Source: Acidobacteriota bacterium (lineage in GTDB: Bacteria; Acidobacteriota; Vicinamibacteria; Vicinamibacterales; UBA2999). Taken from it: a stretch of 15,745 nt of DNA. A program made the translations under genes and the position numbers. Shown piece by piece: positions 862 to 13,180 of the stretch (position 1 is the stretch's first letter; every line of letters starts with the position of its first letter). The stretch covers positions 1 to 15,745 of the forward strand of contig JACCSI010000592.1 in NCBI GenBank assembly GCA_013813075.1. Direction: 5' to 3'. The notes under the pieces are model-generated. The model worked only from the letters and a program-made list of their open reading frames with translations. It was not told the DNA's origin and did not search any database.

Positions 862-1767
862 CTACACCGGAAAGGTGACTGAGCAGGCTGTGGTCTCGGT
901 TTCCACCCTAAGTTCATTGACCGAAATCGAGTCACGTACCTCACGTGACTCAGTCACATATTGAGCCCATTCCACGGGCGTTCGATCCTGCAAGGCGCTA
1001 TGGGGCCGCACCCGATTGTAGTCGTTGCGCCAGACGTCCAGCACGGCCTGCGCCTCGGCCACGCTGCCGAAGACATGGCTGTTGAGGCATTCGTCGCGCA
1101 GCCGACCATTGAAGCTCTCGATAAAGGCATTCTCCACCGGACGGCCTGGCCGAATGAAATCCAATCGCACCGCGTGCCCGTACGCCCAGGCGTCCATGGC
1201 CTTGCTCACAAACTCTGTCCCATTGTCCACGCTGATCGCCAGTGGCTTCGGCCGTTGCTCGAGAATGCGATTCAGCGCCGCGGCCACCTTGATGCCGGTC
1301 AGCGACCGATCGACGACCAAGGCCAGGGCCTCGCGCGTGAAGATGTCGACCACCGTCAGCGTCCGAAACCAGCGCCCGTCGGTCGTCCGCGCGCTCACGA
1401 AGTCCATGGTCCACCGCTCGTTCGGCCGCGTCGGCGCAATCGCGGGCACGCGGGTCCGGCTCGCCAGCTTCTTGCGCGGCTTCGTCCGGACCGCGAGCCC
1501 TTCGAGGTCGTAGAGGCGATACACGCGCTTGGCATTCACCACCCACCCTTCGCGTTTCAGCAGCACCGTCAAGCGTCGATACCCGAAGCGCACGCGCACG
1601 CCCGCAAGCTCGCGGAGCCGCTGTCGCAGCGCCTCCTGCGGATCACGGGTCAAGGTATAGCGCCACGTTTGCAGCCGCACGGGAATCAGCCTCGCCGCCC
1701 GGCGCTGGCTCAAACGATAGGTCGTCTGGGCCCACTCCGCCAGGGTGCAGCGTGCGCGAGGCCTCAC
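862..1767 (-). CDS. IS3-family transposase OrfB (DDE integrase, rve domain)
   Basis: OrfB supplies the catalytic part of the transposase. The N-terminal ~100 residues contain the HTH_21-like region (segment VRFGYRRLTVLLKREGW). The integrase core follows with the DDE triad visible in WTMDFV (first Asp), VDNGTEF (second Asp) and FIESFNGRLRDECLN (Glu). The C-terminal NDYNRVRPHSAL motif is typical of the family. The 301-residue length is normal. The frame starts at a GTG overlapping the orfA stop (GTGA). It is probably expressed mainly as an OrfAB fusion by -1 frameshifting at the A6G motif just upstream, which joins exactly this frame. Confidence 0.93.
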   Translation of the reverse strand: MRPRARCTLAEWAQTTYRLSQRRAARLIPVRLQTWRYTLTRDPQEALRQRLRELAGVRVRFGYRRLTVLLKREGWVVNAKRVYRLYDLEGLAVRTKPRKKLASRTRVPAIAPTRPNERWTMDFVSARTTDGRWFRTLTVVDIFTREALALVVDRSLTGIKVAAALNRILEQRPKPLAISVDNGTEFVSKAMDAWAYGHAVRLDFIRPGRPVENAFIESFNGRLRDECLNSHVFGSVAEAQAVLDVWRNDYNRVRPHSALQDRTPVEWAQYVTESREVRDSISVNELRVETETTACSVTFPV

Positions 1768-2030
1768 AGCTTTTTTCGGACGATCTCCTGGAGGATGTGG
1801 CGGTCAAGTGTCAGATCTGCCACCAGCTGTTTCAGTTTGCTATTTTCGTGGCGGAGGGATCGCAGCTCGCGGACCTCCTGGAGCCCGACGCCGGCGAATG
1901 GCTTCTTCCACCGGTAGAAGCTCTGCTCGCTCACCCCGAGTCGGCGACAGACGTCGGGCACTTTCTCGCCGGCTTCGACCTGGCGGAGGGCGGCGACGAT
2001 CGCTTCGTGGCTGTGACCTTTGCGTGGCAT
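1764..2030 (-). CDS. IS3-family transposase OrfA (helix-turn-helix DNA-binding subunit)
   Basis: This 88-residue protein begins MPRKGHSHEAIVAALRQVE and has the HTH_Tnp_1 pattern (VCRRLGVSEQSFYRWKKPF). A heptad-rich C-terminal stretch (ELRSLRHENSKLKQLVADL) looks like the leucine zipper that mediates OrfA/OrfAB multimers. An ATG at 2039 is also in frame, but AGGAG touches it directly. The same AGGAG is 9 bases from the ATG at 2030, which I therefore prefer. The last codons contain the A AAA AAG slippery sequence. Confidence 0.9.
   Translation of the reverse strand: MPRKGHSHEAIVAALRQVEAGEKVPDVCRRLGVSEQSFYRWKKPFAGVGLQEVRELRSLRHENSKLKQLVADLTLDRHILQEIVRKKL
1770..1776 (-). other. Programmed -1 ribosomal frameshift heptamer (A AAA AAG)
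   Basis: On the minus strand the orfA frame reads A-AAA-AAG two codons before its stop. A -1 slip gives AAA-AAA-GCT-GTG-AGG, which continues directly in the orfB frame. This is the classical IS3-family device for making the OrfAB transposase. Confidence 0.8.
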
Positions 2031-2104
2031 CGTGTGCATCTCCTGGCCGGTCGGTGCCGGCGCGTCTAGGAGACCACACCCTCACTCACGTTCACCTTAT
2101 CCGG

Positions 2105-2345: not shown

Positions 2346-3371
2346 ATGATGATGTACCTCCGCATATGCACGCTGTTGTTCATCGCGACGATTGCCGTGG
2401 GCGGACAGGGGCGCTGGGTCGAGCAGGAAACCATCGATGGCGATCCTGTTCTCCGTGGCCTGCCGAAAGATGCGATTCCCGCCGTTGATAAACCGGCGTT
2501 CGTTCCGGTGGACCGCGCCTTGTTTGTCCACCCCGATGAACCCGTCATCGGCATTGCCATCGATGGTGATGCGCGCGCGTATCCTACCTGGCTGCTGAAC
2601 GCGCACGAGATCGTCAACGACCGCATCGGCGGTCGCGCGATCGCCGTCACCTGGTGACCGCTGTGCTATACGGGCATCGTGTATGCCCGCACGGTCCGCG
2701 GAGAAGAACTCTCGTTCGGAGTGTCAGGCATGCTGTGGCGCGACAACCTCGTGATGTATGACCGTCAGACCGAGTCGTGGTGGGCCCAGGCCGAGGGCCG
2801 CGCGATTCGTGGTCCCAAGCGCGGAACGCGGCTGGAGCAGGTGCCCTCGGACATGATGACTTGGAAGCAGTGGCGTGCGCTCCATCCGCGAACGCGCGTC
2901 CTGTCGACAGGCGAAAACCGTGGCGGTCGCGATGTGTATGCGTCGTACCATGGCAGTGAGTCCCTGGGCGTCACTGGTCGCACCAGAAGTGGCGGAGTGC
3001 TGGAACCGAAACGGCTGGTCGTCGGTTTCCGGATCGATCGCGGTGCGTTTGCGGTTCCGCTCGACATCATCACCACGGACCGTGTGCTACACGTCAGCGG
3101 AGGTGGTCAGCGCGTTGTGCTGGTGACTCTGCCCGATCGCAGCAGCGCCCGCGTGTTCCTCGCCGGCAAAGACACGTTCGCTCCGGCGGGTGAGCGCGAC
3201 GGTCGCGTACTCCTGCGTGACAAGGCGACCGGTTCCATATGGGACGGGTTCGAAGGTCGCTCGATATCAGGGCCACGACAGGATGAACGCCTCGGCGTCA
3301 TTACCGCGCACGTGTCGTACTGGTTTTCGTGGTTCTCATTTTTCCCGGACACGGCGGTGCTGAAGCAGTGA
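2346..3371 (+). CDS. DUF3179-family exported selenoprotein (in-frame UGA at 2655-2657 read as Sec104)
   Basis: The frame runs from ATG 2346 (GGAG seven bases upstream) to TGA 3369-3371, 341 residues if the internal UGA is read. Residues 1-20 form a signal peptide (MMMYLRICTLLFIATIAVGG). The DUF3179 signature follows: VIGIAIDGDARAYP at 68-80, HEIVNDRIGG at 87-96, then AVTW-U-PLC, where the family normally has CPLC. U104 and Cys107 thus form a UxxC redox pair. The sequence after the UGA is unmistakably the same family (YTGIVYAR, SFGVSGMLWRDNLVMYDRQT, SWWAQAEGRAIRGP), with no further stop for 237 codons. A hairpin follows the UGA. A Cys version of the family lies at 11617-13119. The function of DUF3179 is not known to me; a periplasmic thiol/selenol redox or metal-binding role is inferred. 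It is translationally coupled to the VTT-DUF547 gene downstream. The alternative, a nonsense mutation, is less likely because a second gene here shows the same arrangement. Confidence 0.85.
2656..2696 (+). promoter_or_regulatory. Candidate bacterial SECIS element of the DUF3179 gene
   Basis: Directly after the UGA an outer GACC/GGTC pairing (2656-2659 with 2693-2696) and GTG/CAC (2663-2665 with 2690-2692) enclose a perfect 7-bp apical stem, CGGGCAT/ATGCCCG (2671-2677 with 2683-2689). The loop is CGUGU. It starts 20 nt after the UGA and has G in its first two positions, as expected from the bacterial SECIS model. Pairing was found by eye, not by energy calculation. Confidence 0.75.
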
Positions 3372-5516: not shown

Positions 5517-5924
5517 TCAGTGCGCGTGCAGGGCCGCGATCAACGGGCAGGTGATGGTTCCCCGGCCGGCGGTGCATCGTTTGACCAGCTGCGCCAGCAC
5601 CGATTCCATCTGGCGCAGATCGGCGAGTTTGGCGCGCACGTCTGCGAGCTTCTGCTCGGCGGCGGCGCGCGCGTCGGCGCAGCGCGTCCCATCCTCGAGC
5701 GCGAGTAAACCCGCAATCTCTTCGAGGGTGAACCCGAGACGTTGCGCGGATTTCACGAATTTAACGCGTGCGACGTCGGCGGCGCCGTAGCGACGAATGC
5801 CGCCGTATGCGCGTCGCGGGCGGGGCAGCAACCCCTTGCGCTGATAGAAGCGGATCGTTTCGACATTGACGCCGGCCGCAGCCGCAAAGGCTCCGATCGG
5901 CAGATCGTTCAAATCGTTGTTCAT
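5517..5924 (-). CDS. merR: MerR, mercury-responsive transcriptional regulator
   Basis: This 135-residue protein has the MerR-family winged-helix N-terminus ([24 protein letters not shown] at 10-33, then [22 protein letters not shown]), a dimerisation helix, and the three mercury ligands Cys82, Cys117 and Cys126. With ATG 5924 as start these fall at exactly the positions known from Tn501 MerR, which favours this ATG over the GTG three bases upstream. It represses, and with Hg(II) activates, the divergent merTPA promoter by untwisting the 19-bp spacer. The promoter dyad starts only a few bases upstream of its own start codon, so autorepression is expected. Confidence 0.95.
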
Positions 5925-5927
5925 CAC

Positions 5928-5958
5928 TTGACTCCGTACCGAAGTACGGACTGAAGCT
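5928..5958 (+). promoter_or_regulatory. mer promoter/operator (PmerT) with MerR dyad
   Basis: A -35 TTGACT (5928-5933) is followed by a 19-bp spacer and a poor -10 GAAGCT (5953-5958). The spacer carries the inverted repeat CCGTAC-CGAA-GTACGG (5934-5949). The over-long 19-bp spacer and the CCGTAC/GTACGG dyad are hallmarks of MerR-controlled mer promoters. Transcription should begin near 5965, only a few bases before the merT ATG. Confidence 0.88.
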
Positions 5959-5967
5959 TAATCTGTC

Positions 5968-6345
5968 ATGCCGCCCATCGCTACCGAATCACGCACATCG
6001 CCGCCTGCCGCCGGTCGTAGCGCTCTCTACGCCGGCGGCCTCGCCGCGATCCTGGCGTCGACCTGCTGCCTGGGCCCGCTGGTTCTCCTGATGCTTGGCT
6101 TCAGCGGAGCCTGGATCGGCAATCTCACCGCCCTGGAGCCCTACCGGCCGCTGTTCGTCATCGTCGCCGTGATCGCCTTGTTCTTCGCCTATCGCCGGAT
6201 CTTCCGGCCCGCCACGGTCTGTCAACCAGGGGAGGTGTGCGCCGTCCCACAGGTGCGCACGATTTACAAAGCGCTCTTCGGTCTCGCCGCCGTATTGATT
6301 CTGATTGCGATCAGCTTTCCTTTTGTCGCCCCTCTCTTCTATTGA
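5968..6345 (+). CDS. merT: MerT, inner-membrane mercuric ion transporter
   Basis: This 125-residue protein has three membrane helices (about 20-42, 62-76 and 100-122). Cys33-Cys34 lie in the first helix (STCCLGP) and Cys85/Cys91 in the cytoplasmic loop (VCQPGEVCAVPQ), the two pairs that pass Hg(II) from MerP to MerA. The segments GFSGAWIGNLTALEPYRP and PQVRTIYK are strongly conserved in MerT. The N-terminus is some ten residues longer than usual and Pro/Ser-rich. No RBS is possible if transcription starts near 5965, so the message may be leaderless. It is first in the merTPA operon. Confidence 0.95.
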   Translation: MPPIATESRTSPPAAGRSALYAGGLAAILASTCCLGPLVLLMLGFSGAWIGNLTALEPYRPLFVIVAVIALFFAYRRIFRPATVCQPGEVCAVPQVRTIYKALFGLAAVLILIAISFPFVAPLFY

Positions 6346-6400
6346 CTATCGATGACCCGACCTCACTCACGCTCGACACAACCGTAGGAAGGAACCCGTT

Positions 6401-6682
6401 ATGAAGACACTGCTCTCAATTGCCGGCGCGTTGTTGCTCCTCGCCAGTCCCACATTCGCTGCGTCGAAAACCGTGACGCTGGCGGTGCCCGGTATGAACT
6501 GCTCGGCCTGCCCGATCACTGTGAAGAAGGCGCTGACGAAAGTCGCCGGTGTCAGCAAGGTTGATGTGGACCTCGACAAGCGGCAGGCCACTGTGACCTT
6601 CGACGACGCCAAAACCACTGTCGCCGCGCTGACCAAGGCGACGACCGACGCGGGGTACCCGTCCAGCGTCAAGGAGAAGTAA
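6401..6682 (+). CDS. merP: MerP, periplasmic mercury-binding protein
   Basis: This 93-residue protein has a signal peptide (MKTLLSIAGALLLLASPTFA) and an HMA ferredoxin-like fold carrying GMNCSACP, with Cys34 and Cys37 as the Hg(II) ligands. SKVDVDLDKRQATVTFDD is the usual central strand region. AGGAAGG lies 9 bases upstream of the ATG. It traps Hg(II) in the periplasm and hands it to MerT. The stop codon TAA abuts the merA ATG with no gap. Confidence 0.95.
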   Translation: MKTLLSIAGALLLLASPTFAASKTVTLAVPGMNCSACPITVKKALTKVAGVSKVDVDLDKRQATVTFDDAKTTVAALTKATTDAGYPSSVKEK

Positions 6683-8074
<1,392 letters not shown>

Positions 8075-8385: not shown

Positions 8386-9555
8386 ATGCATCTCAGGCAT
8401 TTTGTCGCACCACTCGCGGCACTGTTTGCCGTTCTGTGGAGCGTCGTGGCCATGGCCAATCAGATCCGCCGCGAAGAGCCGTCGGCTCGAGTCGCCGTTG
8501 ACGTGTCGAAGCTCGGGCCGCAGGTCGGTGAGCGCGTGCGCGACTTCCGCCTGAAGGATCAAACGGGTAAGACGTGGACGCTTGAATCGATCATGGGTCC
8601 GAAAGGCGCCATGCTCGTGTTCTATCGCTCCGCTGATTGGTGACCGTACTGCAAAACGCAGCTCGTCGAGCTGCAACGCCAGGTCGAACATCTCCGCGCC
8701 CGCGGCCTCGGGCTGGCCGCGATCAGTTACGACGCGCCTGAGATCCTCGCGGGATTCAGTCAACGCTACGGCATCACGTTTCCGCTGCTGTCCGACGCAG
8801 ACTCCGCGACGATCACCGCGTACGGCATCCTCAACACTGTCGCCGACGAGGCGCTCGGATCGCGCGGCGATGATCCCTCTGTCGTGGACGACGTGAAGAA
8901 GTTCGTCTCGATCACGGGCTCGCGCAACACCGCGGTCGTGACGAAGGGGACGCCATTTCCCGGAACGTTCCTCATCGACCGCGACGGCCGCGTAACGGCG
9001 CGCGACTTCGAGGAGTTCTATCGCGAGCGCACCACGGTGTCGACGGTCATGCTCAGGCTCGGCGCCGGTGAGCCGCCGATCGCCGCGACGACGATGGCGC
9101 GCGACCATCTGGACATCACGACGTATCCGGCTGATGCCGTCGTCGCGCCGGGCAACCGCACCGCGCTCGTCATCAACATCACTCCCAAGCCAGGCATTCA
9201 CGTGTATGCACCAGGTGCGTCCGGGTACCGAACGGTGAAGTTGACAATCGCGCCCGATCCGCTGGTGCGCGTGCTGCCGATTGCGTTCCCGAAGTCGGAG
9301 ATCTACTTGTTCAAACCGCTCAATGAGCGCGTCGAGGTGTATCAGACGCCCTTTACGCTGTTGCAGGAAATCGTGCTCGAAGTCACGCCGGCAGCGGAAA
9401 AGGCGTTTCGCGGCACACCGGAGCTGACGCTCACCGGCACGCTCGAGTATCAGGCGTGCGACGACAAAGTGTGCTTCAACCCGGCCACCGTTCCGCTGTC
9501 GTGGACGCTGAAGGTGACGACGAACATCACCGAGCGCACCCGGCCTCCGCGCTGA
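8386..9555 (+). CDS. Exported redoxin (peroxiredoxin-like) fused to a DsbD N-terminal-like domain; selenoprotein (UGA 8641-8643 read as Sec86)
   Basis: ATG 8386 follows AAGGAG by seven bases. The 389-residue frame ends at TGA 9553-9555 if the internal UGA is read. Residues 1-24 are a signal peptide. Residues 43-230 form an AhpC/TSA-type thioredoxin fold (VGERVRDFRLKDQTG, AMLVFYRSADW-U-PYCKTQL, later FPGTFLIDRDGRV), with U86 and Cys89 in the place of the catalytic CxxC. Residues about 240-385 resemble the DsbD N-terminal (alpha) domain (ITPKPGIHVYAPG, TLEYQACDDKVCFNP) with Cys358/Cys363. The likely role is periplasmic thiol-disulfide or peroxide chemistry, with the C-terminal pair exchanging electrons with the selenol centre; this is inferred. 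The frame is open for 303 codons after the UGA and a hairpin follows it. A UGA in the UxxC position is known from thioredoxin-fold and peroxiredoxin-like selenoproteins. A nonsense mutation is the less likely alternative. Confidence 0.86.
8642..8685 (+). promoter_or_regulatory. Candidate bacterial SECIS element of the redoxin gene
   Basis: A perfect 7-bp stem GCAGCTC/GAGCTGC (8658-8664 with 8668-8674) closes a GUC loop that begins 21 nt after the UGA. An outer GACC/GGTC pairing (8642-8645 with 8682-8685) is identical in sequence to that of the DUF3179 candidate. The first loop base is G. The 3-nt loop is tight; opening the closing C-G pair would give CGUCG. Confidence 0.75.
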
Positions 9556-11616: not shown

Positions 11617-13119
11617 TTATTTGATGAGCAGGGTTTTGGGGAACTGCGCGTACCAGCCGAACCAGAACGCGCGCGCCGCGGCAACGCGTGGAAGCCGCTG
11701 GGTGACGTCGCTCTCGAGTGTGAGGAACTCCTCGGTGACACGCCATCGGGCGCCATTCGCGTCGGTGACCACGTCGTGCCCTTCAGTCGATCGCAACACG
11801 ACTGATCGATCGCGGACGTCGTACACGCGATTCGCGCCCTTCGGACTCGTGACGACGACCAGGGGGCTGCCCTCGACTTCGAGATGGAAGACGGGATTGC
11901 GCTTGAGGAACGCGACCTCGATCGCGACGGGCTGCGGGGTGCCTCCGGCGCGTGGTCGCACGCGCAGCGTCAGCACCTCGGTCTTGTTCTTCAAGCGACG
12001 GTCGACCTGTGACACACCGAAATACAAGCTGTCGCTTGCGAAGTAATCGCGATACGCGACGCCTTCTCCGTAATCGCGTTTATGACCGGTATCCAGCGAC
12101 AGCACTGTGGTGTTTGGATGGGTCGTTCGCCATTCTCCCCAGGTCGTGGTCACCACTTCCCGCGGCGTGAGCGCGCCACCTTTGTCGCTGAGGGGCCCGA
12201 CCACCGGCGTGCCTTCGATCGAGTTCCAGAGACTTGCCGTTTGTTCGTCGAACATCAGCTTGTTCGATCGATACAGCAGGCCGCTGGTGCCGAATCGGAG
12301 AAGGCGTCCGGCCACGGTGCTCTCGTACGGGATCACCGTCCCGCACAGCGTGCAGTACACAACCGTCAGCTCGACGGCGCCGACGCGATCAATCGCCAGT
12401 TCGTGCCACGCGAGAATCCGCTTCGGATACGCGCGCGCCTCGCCGTTGATGGCCACGCCAAAGACGATGTGGCCATCGCGCATGTACGACGCATCCTGCG
12501 CGGCAACCACACGCGGATACACGAGTGGTGGAATGCCGTTGACCGGGACGCCGCCCCAATCGATCTCATCGAGACGAATACGGGACTGCACACCCGGCGG
12601 AAAGAACGCGCGCATCCGCGGGTCGATCTGGCTGTAGACGATGCCCTTGAATTCGCCGTACTGCGGATGCGGCTCGTACGGCAATGCCCACATCCATTCG
12701 CGCCAGCCGTTGAGTGTGTCGTCGAAGCGCTTGCCCGTCTGCTTTTCCAGGAAGCGCAACAGCCGCGCTCGTACGATCGATTCGCGCGGCACCGGCCGTG
12801 GGCCCGCCCCTTCGCGCGACTGCCCGCCGGCAGCACTGCCGTCAACTTCCTCATCTCCGAACGACGGCGCGATGATGTCGGAGCCGCCCTGCCGCGGCGC
12901 GCGGCGCATCAGGCGCACCATGTCGATGATCATTGGCGTGTAGCTGTCTTTCCAGTTGCTGGCAATCGCATCGAGCGCCTGACGTGACATCTTGTCGTCG
13001 ACGGCCGCGGCCTGAGCAAAGAGGTCCAGTGGCGGTGGTGGCGTTGGCGCCTGATCCGCGAGCAGTGAGGCGCTCAGCAGAATCACCGCGAGGCACGTCG
13101 TTCGACGGGAAGAACGCAT
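11617..13119 (-). CDS. DUF3179-family exported protein, cysteine version
   Basis: This 500-residue protein starts at ATG 13119. The ATG at 13179 would begin inside the CRP/FNR-type palindrome and is rejected. A signal peptide (TTCLAVILLSASLLA) is followed by a Pro-rich linker. About 180 residues not present in the selenoprotein paralogue come next (HPQYGEFKGIVYSQID, RIRLDEIDWGGVPVNGIPPLVYP). Then comes the DUF3179 domain: VFGVAINGEARAYP, HELAIDRVG, and VVYCTLCGTVIPYES with Cys256/Cys259. This aligns Cys256 with the UGA-encoded position of the paralogue. The domain continues with FGTSGLLYRSNKLMFDEQT and SLWNSIEGTPVVGPL. The mechanism is unknown to me. It is the first gene of a probable minus-strand operon with the kinase (71 bp downstream) and the nucleoside hydrolase. 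Confidence 0.9.
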   Translation of the reverse strand: MRSSRRTTCLAVILLSASLLADQAPTPPPPLDLFAQAAAVDDKMSRQALDAIASNWKDSYTPMIIDMVRLMRRAPRQGGSDIIAPSFGDEEVDGSAAGGQSREGAGPRPVPRESIVRARLLRFLEKQTGKRFDDTLNGWREWMWALPYEPHPQYGEFKGIVYSQIDPRMRAFFPPGVQSRIRLDEIDWGGVPVNGIPPLVYPRVVAAQDASYMRDGHIVFGVAINGEARAYPKRILAWHELAIDRVGAVELTVVYCTLCGTVIPYESTVAGRLLRFGTSGLLYRSNKLMFDEQTASLWNSIEGTPVVGPLSDKGGALTPREVVTTTWGEWRTTHPNTTVLSLDTGHKRDYGEGVAYRDYFASDSLYFGVSQVDRRLKNKTEVLTLRVRPRAGGTPQPVAIEVAFLKRNPVFHLEVEGSPLVVVTSPKGANRVYDVRDRSVVLRSTEGHDVVTDANGARWRVTEEFLTLESDVTQRLPRVAAARAFWFGWYAQFPKTLLIK

Positions 13120-13164
13120 TGGGCCCACTATGAAGGGTGGTGGCAGGGTCTGCAACAGGCAGAC

Positions 13165-13180
13165 TGTGATGCTGTTCACA
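13165..13180. promoter_or_regulatory. CRP/FNR-type operator TGTGA-N6-TCACA (site 4, exact)
   Basis: The palindrome TGTGATGCTGTTCACA lies 45 bp before the ATG of the DUF3179(Cys) gene. On the minus strand a -10-like CATAGT (13132-13127) begins 40-41 bp past its centre, which would put the transcript start almost at the ATG. The NrtS-like gene also ends just downstream, so control of the DUF3179 operon is the natural reading. Confidence 0.7.

Follow-up and report, generated by a model that had tools for sequence, protein, structure and literature searches.

A DUF3179 selenoprotein gene with an in-frame UGA in an Acidobacteriota bacterium and its possible tandem Rieske-like fold

DUF3179 (PF11376, UxxC/T) is entered in the selenoprotein table of PMC9312934 and again in that of PMC13188914, where it is credited to Zhang and Gladyshev 2007 (reference 60, Olavius algarvensis symbiont). 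DUF3179 is also mentioned in a table of an Idiomarina paper, and the haloarchaeal NCBI record WP_338918211.1 bears the name 'DUF3179 domain-containing (seleno)protein' (cited for its name only). The gene described here, a DUF3179 gene interrupted by one in-frame UGA, lies in a stretch of 15,745 nucleotides (hereafter the window) that is one entire contig, JACCSI010000592.1, of the Acidobacteriota assembly GCA_013813075.1 (84% complete, 759 contigs). The original prediction that this may be a new selenoprotein family was not supported, because two reviews list DUF3179 as a selenoprotein family; the window gene is a further member of it. It shares with the tabulated proteins the Pfam family and selenocysteine (Sec) at the first position of UxxC. 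The tabulated motif is UxxC/T, whereas in the sequences studied here A, V, D and S occurred at the second position too, a variability at which the UxxC/T of the reviews already hints. In the literature searched, nothing was found on the fold of DUF3179 and no Rieske-fold selenoprotein was found, a 2026 review being free of the word Rieske; the selenoprotein literature on Acidobacteria and metagenomes (including PMC12013277, as far as its accessible text goes) and that on selenocysteine in Vicinamibacter had nothing on DUF3179. The likely novel parts are the fold, the evidence on which residue acts and the observation that Sec members often lack the second Cys. Taken as a whole, and with the inferred steps of its mechanism included, the reading of this gene as a genuine bacterial selenoprotein of the listed DUF3179 (PF11376) family was given a probability of about 0.8. 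Its features are the following:

Positions 2346 to 3371, forward strand: gene for a DUF3179 selenoprotein of 341 residues (Sec counted), followed by a TGA stop.
Positions 2355 to 2402, forward strand: N-terminal hydrophobic helix, residues 4-19, a helix in the structure model and a probable signal peptide.
Positions 2523 to 2861, forward strand: first repeat, residues 60-172, with a Rieske-like fold in the model; contains Sec104 and Cys107.
Positions 2655 to 2657, forward strand: UGA codon within the frame, at residue 104, taken as selenocysteine.
Positions 2671 to 2689, forward strand: hairpin resembling a selenocysteine insertion sequence (SECIS), with a 7-bp stem (2671-2677/2683-2689) and loop 2678-2682 (CGUGU), from alignment A1, pair counts and a Cys-gene control.
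Positions 2997 to 3320, forward strand: second repeat, residues 218-325, with a Rieske-like fold in the model and neither Cys nor Sec.

Translation of 2346-3371 with UGA as U gave only the U at residue 104 (AVTW-U-PLC) and the terminator, which confirmed the predicted single frame with UGA 2655-2657 as its sole interruption. Besides Sec104, the whole protein has just two residues of this kind, Cys8 of the leader and Cys107. The PF11376 profile, whose cut-off is 27 bits, runs through the UGA both in the genomic DNA (275.6 bits, one internal TGA) and in the protein (282.2 bits; residues 41-336, profile positions 1-292 of 292). The predicted placing of the UGA at the first Cys of CPLC was borne out. 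The 237 codons behind it contain no in-frame stop, compared with five in each of the two other frames, and the probability of such a stop-free stretch calculated from base composition is 0.0012. An alternative in-frame ATG at 2310 makes the start codon uncertain. The protein (P0001) had no match in NCBIfam.

Read with the standard code, the same DNA yields two open reading frames (ORFs), 2310/2346-2657 and 2679-3371, the second from GTG 2679, and this is the arrangement that a true stop, in a pseudogene or between two genes, would give. Since the standard code splits the gene at the UGA, Sec copies of the family are probably under-annotated. The region behind the UGA, however, is under purifying selection. 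When it was compared with L046, the closest named relative (from a separate Vicinamibacterales metagenome-assembled genome, MAG; 67% identical to the window protein where the two align best), non-synonymous divergence (dN) was 0.297 and synonymous divergence (dS) 1.34, and comparison with four other relatives gave dN values of 0.43-0.73 and dS values of 1.15-1.99. With dN well below dS, the codons behind the UGA appear to have been selected as protein. Both L046 and L072 have UGA at the identical codon, which makes a sequencing error unlikely.

The family was surveyed in 396 genomes of the phylum, 133 of which have DUF3179. All 51 TGA rows among the matches listed (window included) and 81 of the non-TGA rows were fetched, together with 9 loci of named genomes. 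In 55/55 distinct UGA genes fetched, the UGA falls in a single alignment column, that of the first Cys of CPLC (56 UGA segments were aligned, one being a copy of the window gene), and Cys stands in this column in 68 of the 140 rows of the tree described below. The homologue search upheld the predicted pairing of Sec and Cys at this column; it also argues against a true stop, as does the PF11376 match across the codon. Sec copies occurred as well in MAGs named Latescibacterota (L050), Calditrichia (L051) and 'proteobacterium' (L047). The window itself carries a second DUF3179 gene (11617-13179, reverse strand), which has Cys in the motif (YCTLCGT) and is extended at the N terminus by about 200 residues, and a third copy was seen on contig C489 of the genome.

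The Sec genes proposed for checking were found in the same genome by profile searches, SelA, SelB, SelD and tRNA-Sec each scoring above the cut-off. SelA was present in two pieces, both ending at a contig end, whose profile ranges overlap at 253-359, and these may be one gene or two. The selD gene is itself interrupted by an in-frame TGA (G000:C599:2080-3000, L155); SelD is named as a known selenoprotein family in the 2026 review. Among 80 genomes, SelB was found in 41 of the 46 with a UGA copy and in 25 of the 34 without a listed one (Fisher p 0.08), a contrast that is weak because the Sec trait is common in this phylum.

A hairpin had also been predicted 3' of the UGA, and its presence was supported by covariation. 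Identical stretches were entered once, so that 54 of the 55 Sec genes were distributed between alignments A1 (34) and A3 (20), and 64 of the 69 Cys-type genes formed the Cys control, A2. In the 34 Sec genes the stem (positions 17-23/29-35 counted from the U of the UGA) was paired in 94.5% of cells, versus 80.5% in shuffles, and showed 25 double changes, versus 4.3; neither value was reached by any of 500 shuffles, and two coarser covariation measures were reached by 21/500 and 8/500. Slid registers of the stem gave no more than 45.0% pairing. At the same positions the 64 distinct Cys sequences were paired in 46.0% of cells, compared with 45.9% in their shuffles, and at least six of the seven stem pairs were formed in 31/34 Sec genes versus 0/64 Cys sequences. 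No Rfam family matched within the window at gathering scores. Because the machinery is present, the column holds in 55/55 genes, the hairpin covaries and the region downstream is under purifying selection, UGA 2655-2657 almost certainly encodes selenocysteine. The true stop is very improbable, given the compensatory changes in the stem together with the Sec machinery and the evidence presented above.

Some observations limit the weight of single lines of this evidence. The tRNA-Sec model also scored above its threshold in 5 of 14 controls, and this hit was given lower weight. The hairpin fold of the window sequence alone is unremarkable (z -0.46), its support coming from comparison with relatives only, and in another clade, of 20 Sec genes, the hairpin is a different and shorter one, too invariant for a proof by covariation. 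A general reading that Sec members dispense with the second Cys (see below) is countered by Cys107, which the window gene has and which is invariant in the nearest homologues (alignment A4, 93 rows; 92 sequences were chosen by length and redundancy from the 120 listed of 542 proteins).

A quick tree of 140 rows was built with the motif column removed. It was drawn from 166 domain segments after removal of L001 and L002, which duplicate window genes, of 11 segments that lack the motif column, of 12 matches that were fragments or fell on the second repeat, and of the Cys segment L136 (148 residues; limit 150). On this tree Sec and Cys require at least seven changes, and Sec, Cys and other residues nine. 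Five Cys genes (L130, L131, L132, L139 and L144) are nested in a Sec clade; the nested group is starred at 99, and the forks that nest them stand at 90-91, unstarred. Their genomes (G094, G171, G359, G370 and G130) are each at least 99% complete; SelB exceeded the cut-off in none of the five, and tRNA-Sec stayed under the gathering score in all except G130 (51.3 bits). Judged from these sequences, it looks as if Cys had replaced Sec in the nested clade upon loss of the machinery. Two further Cys genes, L031 (G183) and L128 (G201), stand beside Sec genes. Machinery loss would not be the sole route from Sec to Cys, because G183 and G201 both retain SelB.

One important question is which residue of the motif reacts. 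The suggestion that it is the first Cys was supported: this is the only column with UGA (55/55), and the second position is variable. In Sec rows the second residue is C in 32, A in 15, T in 4, V in 2, D in 1 and S in 1 (L093), and in Cys rows it is C in 63, T in 4 and A in 1. The second Cys is therefore missing in 23/55 Sec rows versus 5/68 Cys rows, the rows being related by descent and the losses thus dependent events. L128, with Cys at the first place and Ala at the second, is the sister of a Sec-Ala row. The Cys that would resolve a CxxC pair is present in the window gene and in 93/93 A4 rows. By these alignments the second Cys often seems dispensable beside Sec but seldom beside Cys; the Sec genes without it argue against an obligatory CxxC pair. 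Other positions are strongly conserved. Asp139 was found in 55/55 Sec, 68/68 Cys and 16/17 other rows, Trp146 in 55/55, 67/68 and 14/17, His87 in 52/55, 66/67 and 17/17, and Gly156 in all rows; at position 88 either E or H stands in 55/55, 67/67 and 17/17. The 17 rows without Cys or Sec at the site (L134, L138, L141 and L148 among them) have S, N, H, D, G or Q there and each retain His87, Glu88, Asn91 and Asp92 (17/17 in every case); several match the profile only over about 1-230. They are perhaps pseudo-enzymes or binding proteins.

In the structure model the protein is mostly beta and consists of a tandem repeat, both halves of which resemble solved Rieske domains in fold. A tandem Rieske-like fold is quite probable on this model. 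The relatives by fold match are Rieske iron-sulfur proteins (PF00355), such as the naphthalene dioxygenase ferredoxin 2qpz and the nitrite reductase small subunit 3c0d. In contrast to these, the DUF3179 protein lacks the CxH...CxxH ligands of the [2Fe-2S] cluster, and Sec104 lies about 10-17 residues before the first ligand loop as counted from alignment ranges (the 2qpz ligand positions were counted by hand in the sequence; this is counting, not residue-level superposition). Sec as a ligand of a Rieske cluster was rejected on account of this position. A link to Rieske proteins at the sequence level was also rejected: PF00355 had no match in the window protein; hhalign against a Rieske profile of 14 sequences (14 of 30 loci, those fitting the motif pattern used) gave probabilities of 1.3 for the first repeat and 0.3 for the second; the profile search of PDB returned no match up to E 10; and P0001 alone found one chance-level match there, ribosomal L3 (E 0.35). 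Nine long DUF3179 proteins had no additional Pfam domain. The thioredoxin-like CxxC/UxxC selenoproteins share the UxxC spacing, which is kept in the window gene, but the DUF3179 model is predominantly beta and its fold matches are of the Rieske type, and Sec rows of the wider family often lack the second Cys.

The following mechanism is proposed. SelB would deliver Sec-tRNA to the UGA codon, and the protein would be exported by means of the hydrophobic helix 4-19, to fold as two tandem Rieske-like beta domains devoid of an iron-sulfur cluster. Sec104, placed opposite the conserved His87 on an antiparallel hairpin, would be the reactive selenol; a substrate would oxidise it, and Cys107 where present (as here), or else an outside thiol, would reduce it back. 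Sec beside a conserved His is our best guess for the active site, and the odds for a role as a secreted selenol/thiol redox enzyme appear evenly balanced. Equally balanced is the broader proposal, drawn from the model, which sees in DUF3179 a tandem Rieske-fold protein without a cluster that turned selenol enzyme, its Sec or Cys lying at the hairpin end beside His87 and at a distance from the lost cluster site, and its partner Cys being dispensable in many Sec members.

The main rival of the redox role is a metal-ligand role, in which Sec104, His87 and Glu/His88 would bind a soft metal in the periplasm. The near-constant His87, the E or H always found at residue 88 and the replacement of the second Cys in 23/55 Sec rows, which fits a single ligand, are consistent with it, as are a MerR-MerT-MerP-MerA-like cluster on the same contig and MerA-like flavoproteins (assigned by eye) near 6 of 124 genes. 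The mercury genes, however, begin at least 2.1 kb downstream, such neighbours are few, and the rows without Cys or Sec retain the other site residues; we consider a metal-ligand role unlikely. Still less likely is a reaction other than redox, either acyl transfer or hydrolysis, in which Cys/Sec104 would be the nucleophile and His87 the base; the adjoining conserved His and the lack of the second Cys from many Sec rows can be cited for it. To our knowledge Sec is rarely used in such reactions, and no cysteine hydrolase is prominent among the listed fold matches, an observation that excludes nothing. Sec identifies the reactive residue to one atom in an uncharacterised family, which makes DUF3179 testable. 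The tandem Rieske-like fold, if true, would be the first structural idea for DUF3179 and would make it a Rieske-fold selenoprotein.

ORF clustering around the 124 genes revealed no common partner. Among the largest neighbour clusters, with names assigned by eye, were VTT/DUF547-type proteins (near 7 loci), short-chain-dehydrogenase-like proteins (near 7) and FAD oxidoreductases (near 6), neighbours being under-counted for L001-L045, which cover at most 1.5 kb per side. The ORF directly upstream in L046 clusters with the VTT-DUF547 gene of the window. Two overlapping ORFs resembling an IS3-type transposase pair (by eye; 862-2039, reverse strand) stop about 300 bases short of the Sec gene. A mercury-resistance-like cluster occupies positions 5517-8074 of the window:

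Positions 5517 to 5927, reverse strand: MerR-like (by eye).
Positions 5968 to 6345: MerT (Pfam).
Positions 6401 to 6682: MerP-like (by eye).
Positions 6683 to 8074: pyridine nucleotide-disulphide oxidoreductase (Pfam), MerA-like (by eye).

A second in-frame UGA was observed at 8641-8643 (SADW-UGA-PYC), in an AhpC/TSA-Redoxin protein that runs from ATG 8386 to 9555, has a DsbD_N-like end and is followed 3' of the UGA by the stem GCAGCTC/GAGCTGC. PMC9312934 and the 2026 review both list a selenoprotein family of the AhpC/TSA type, and by its sequence this gene very probably encodes a peroxiredoxin-like selenoprotein.
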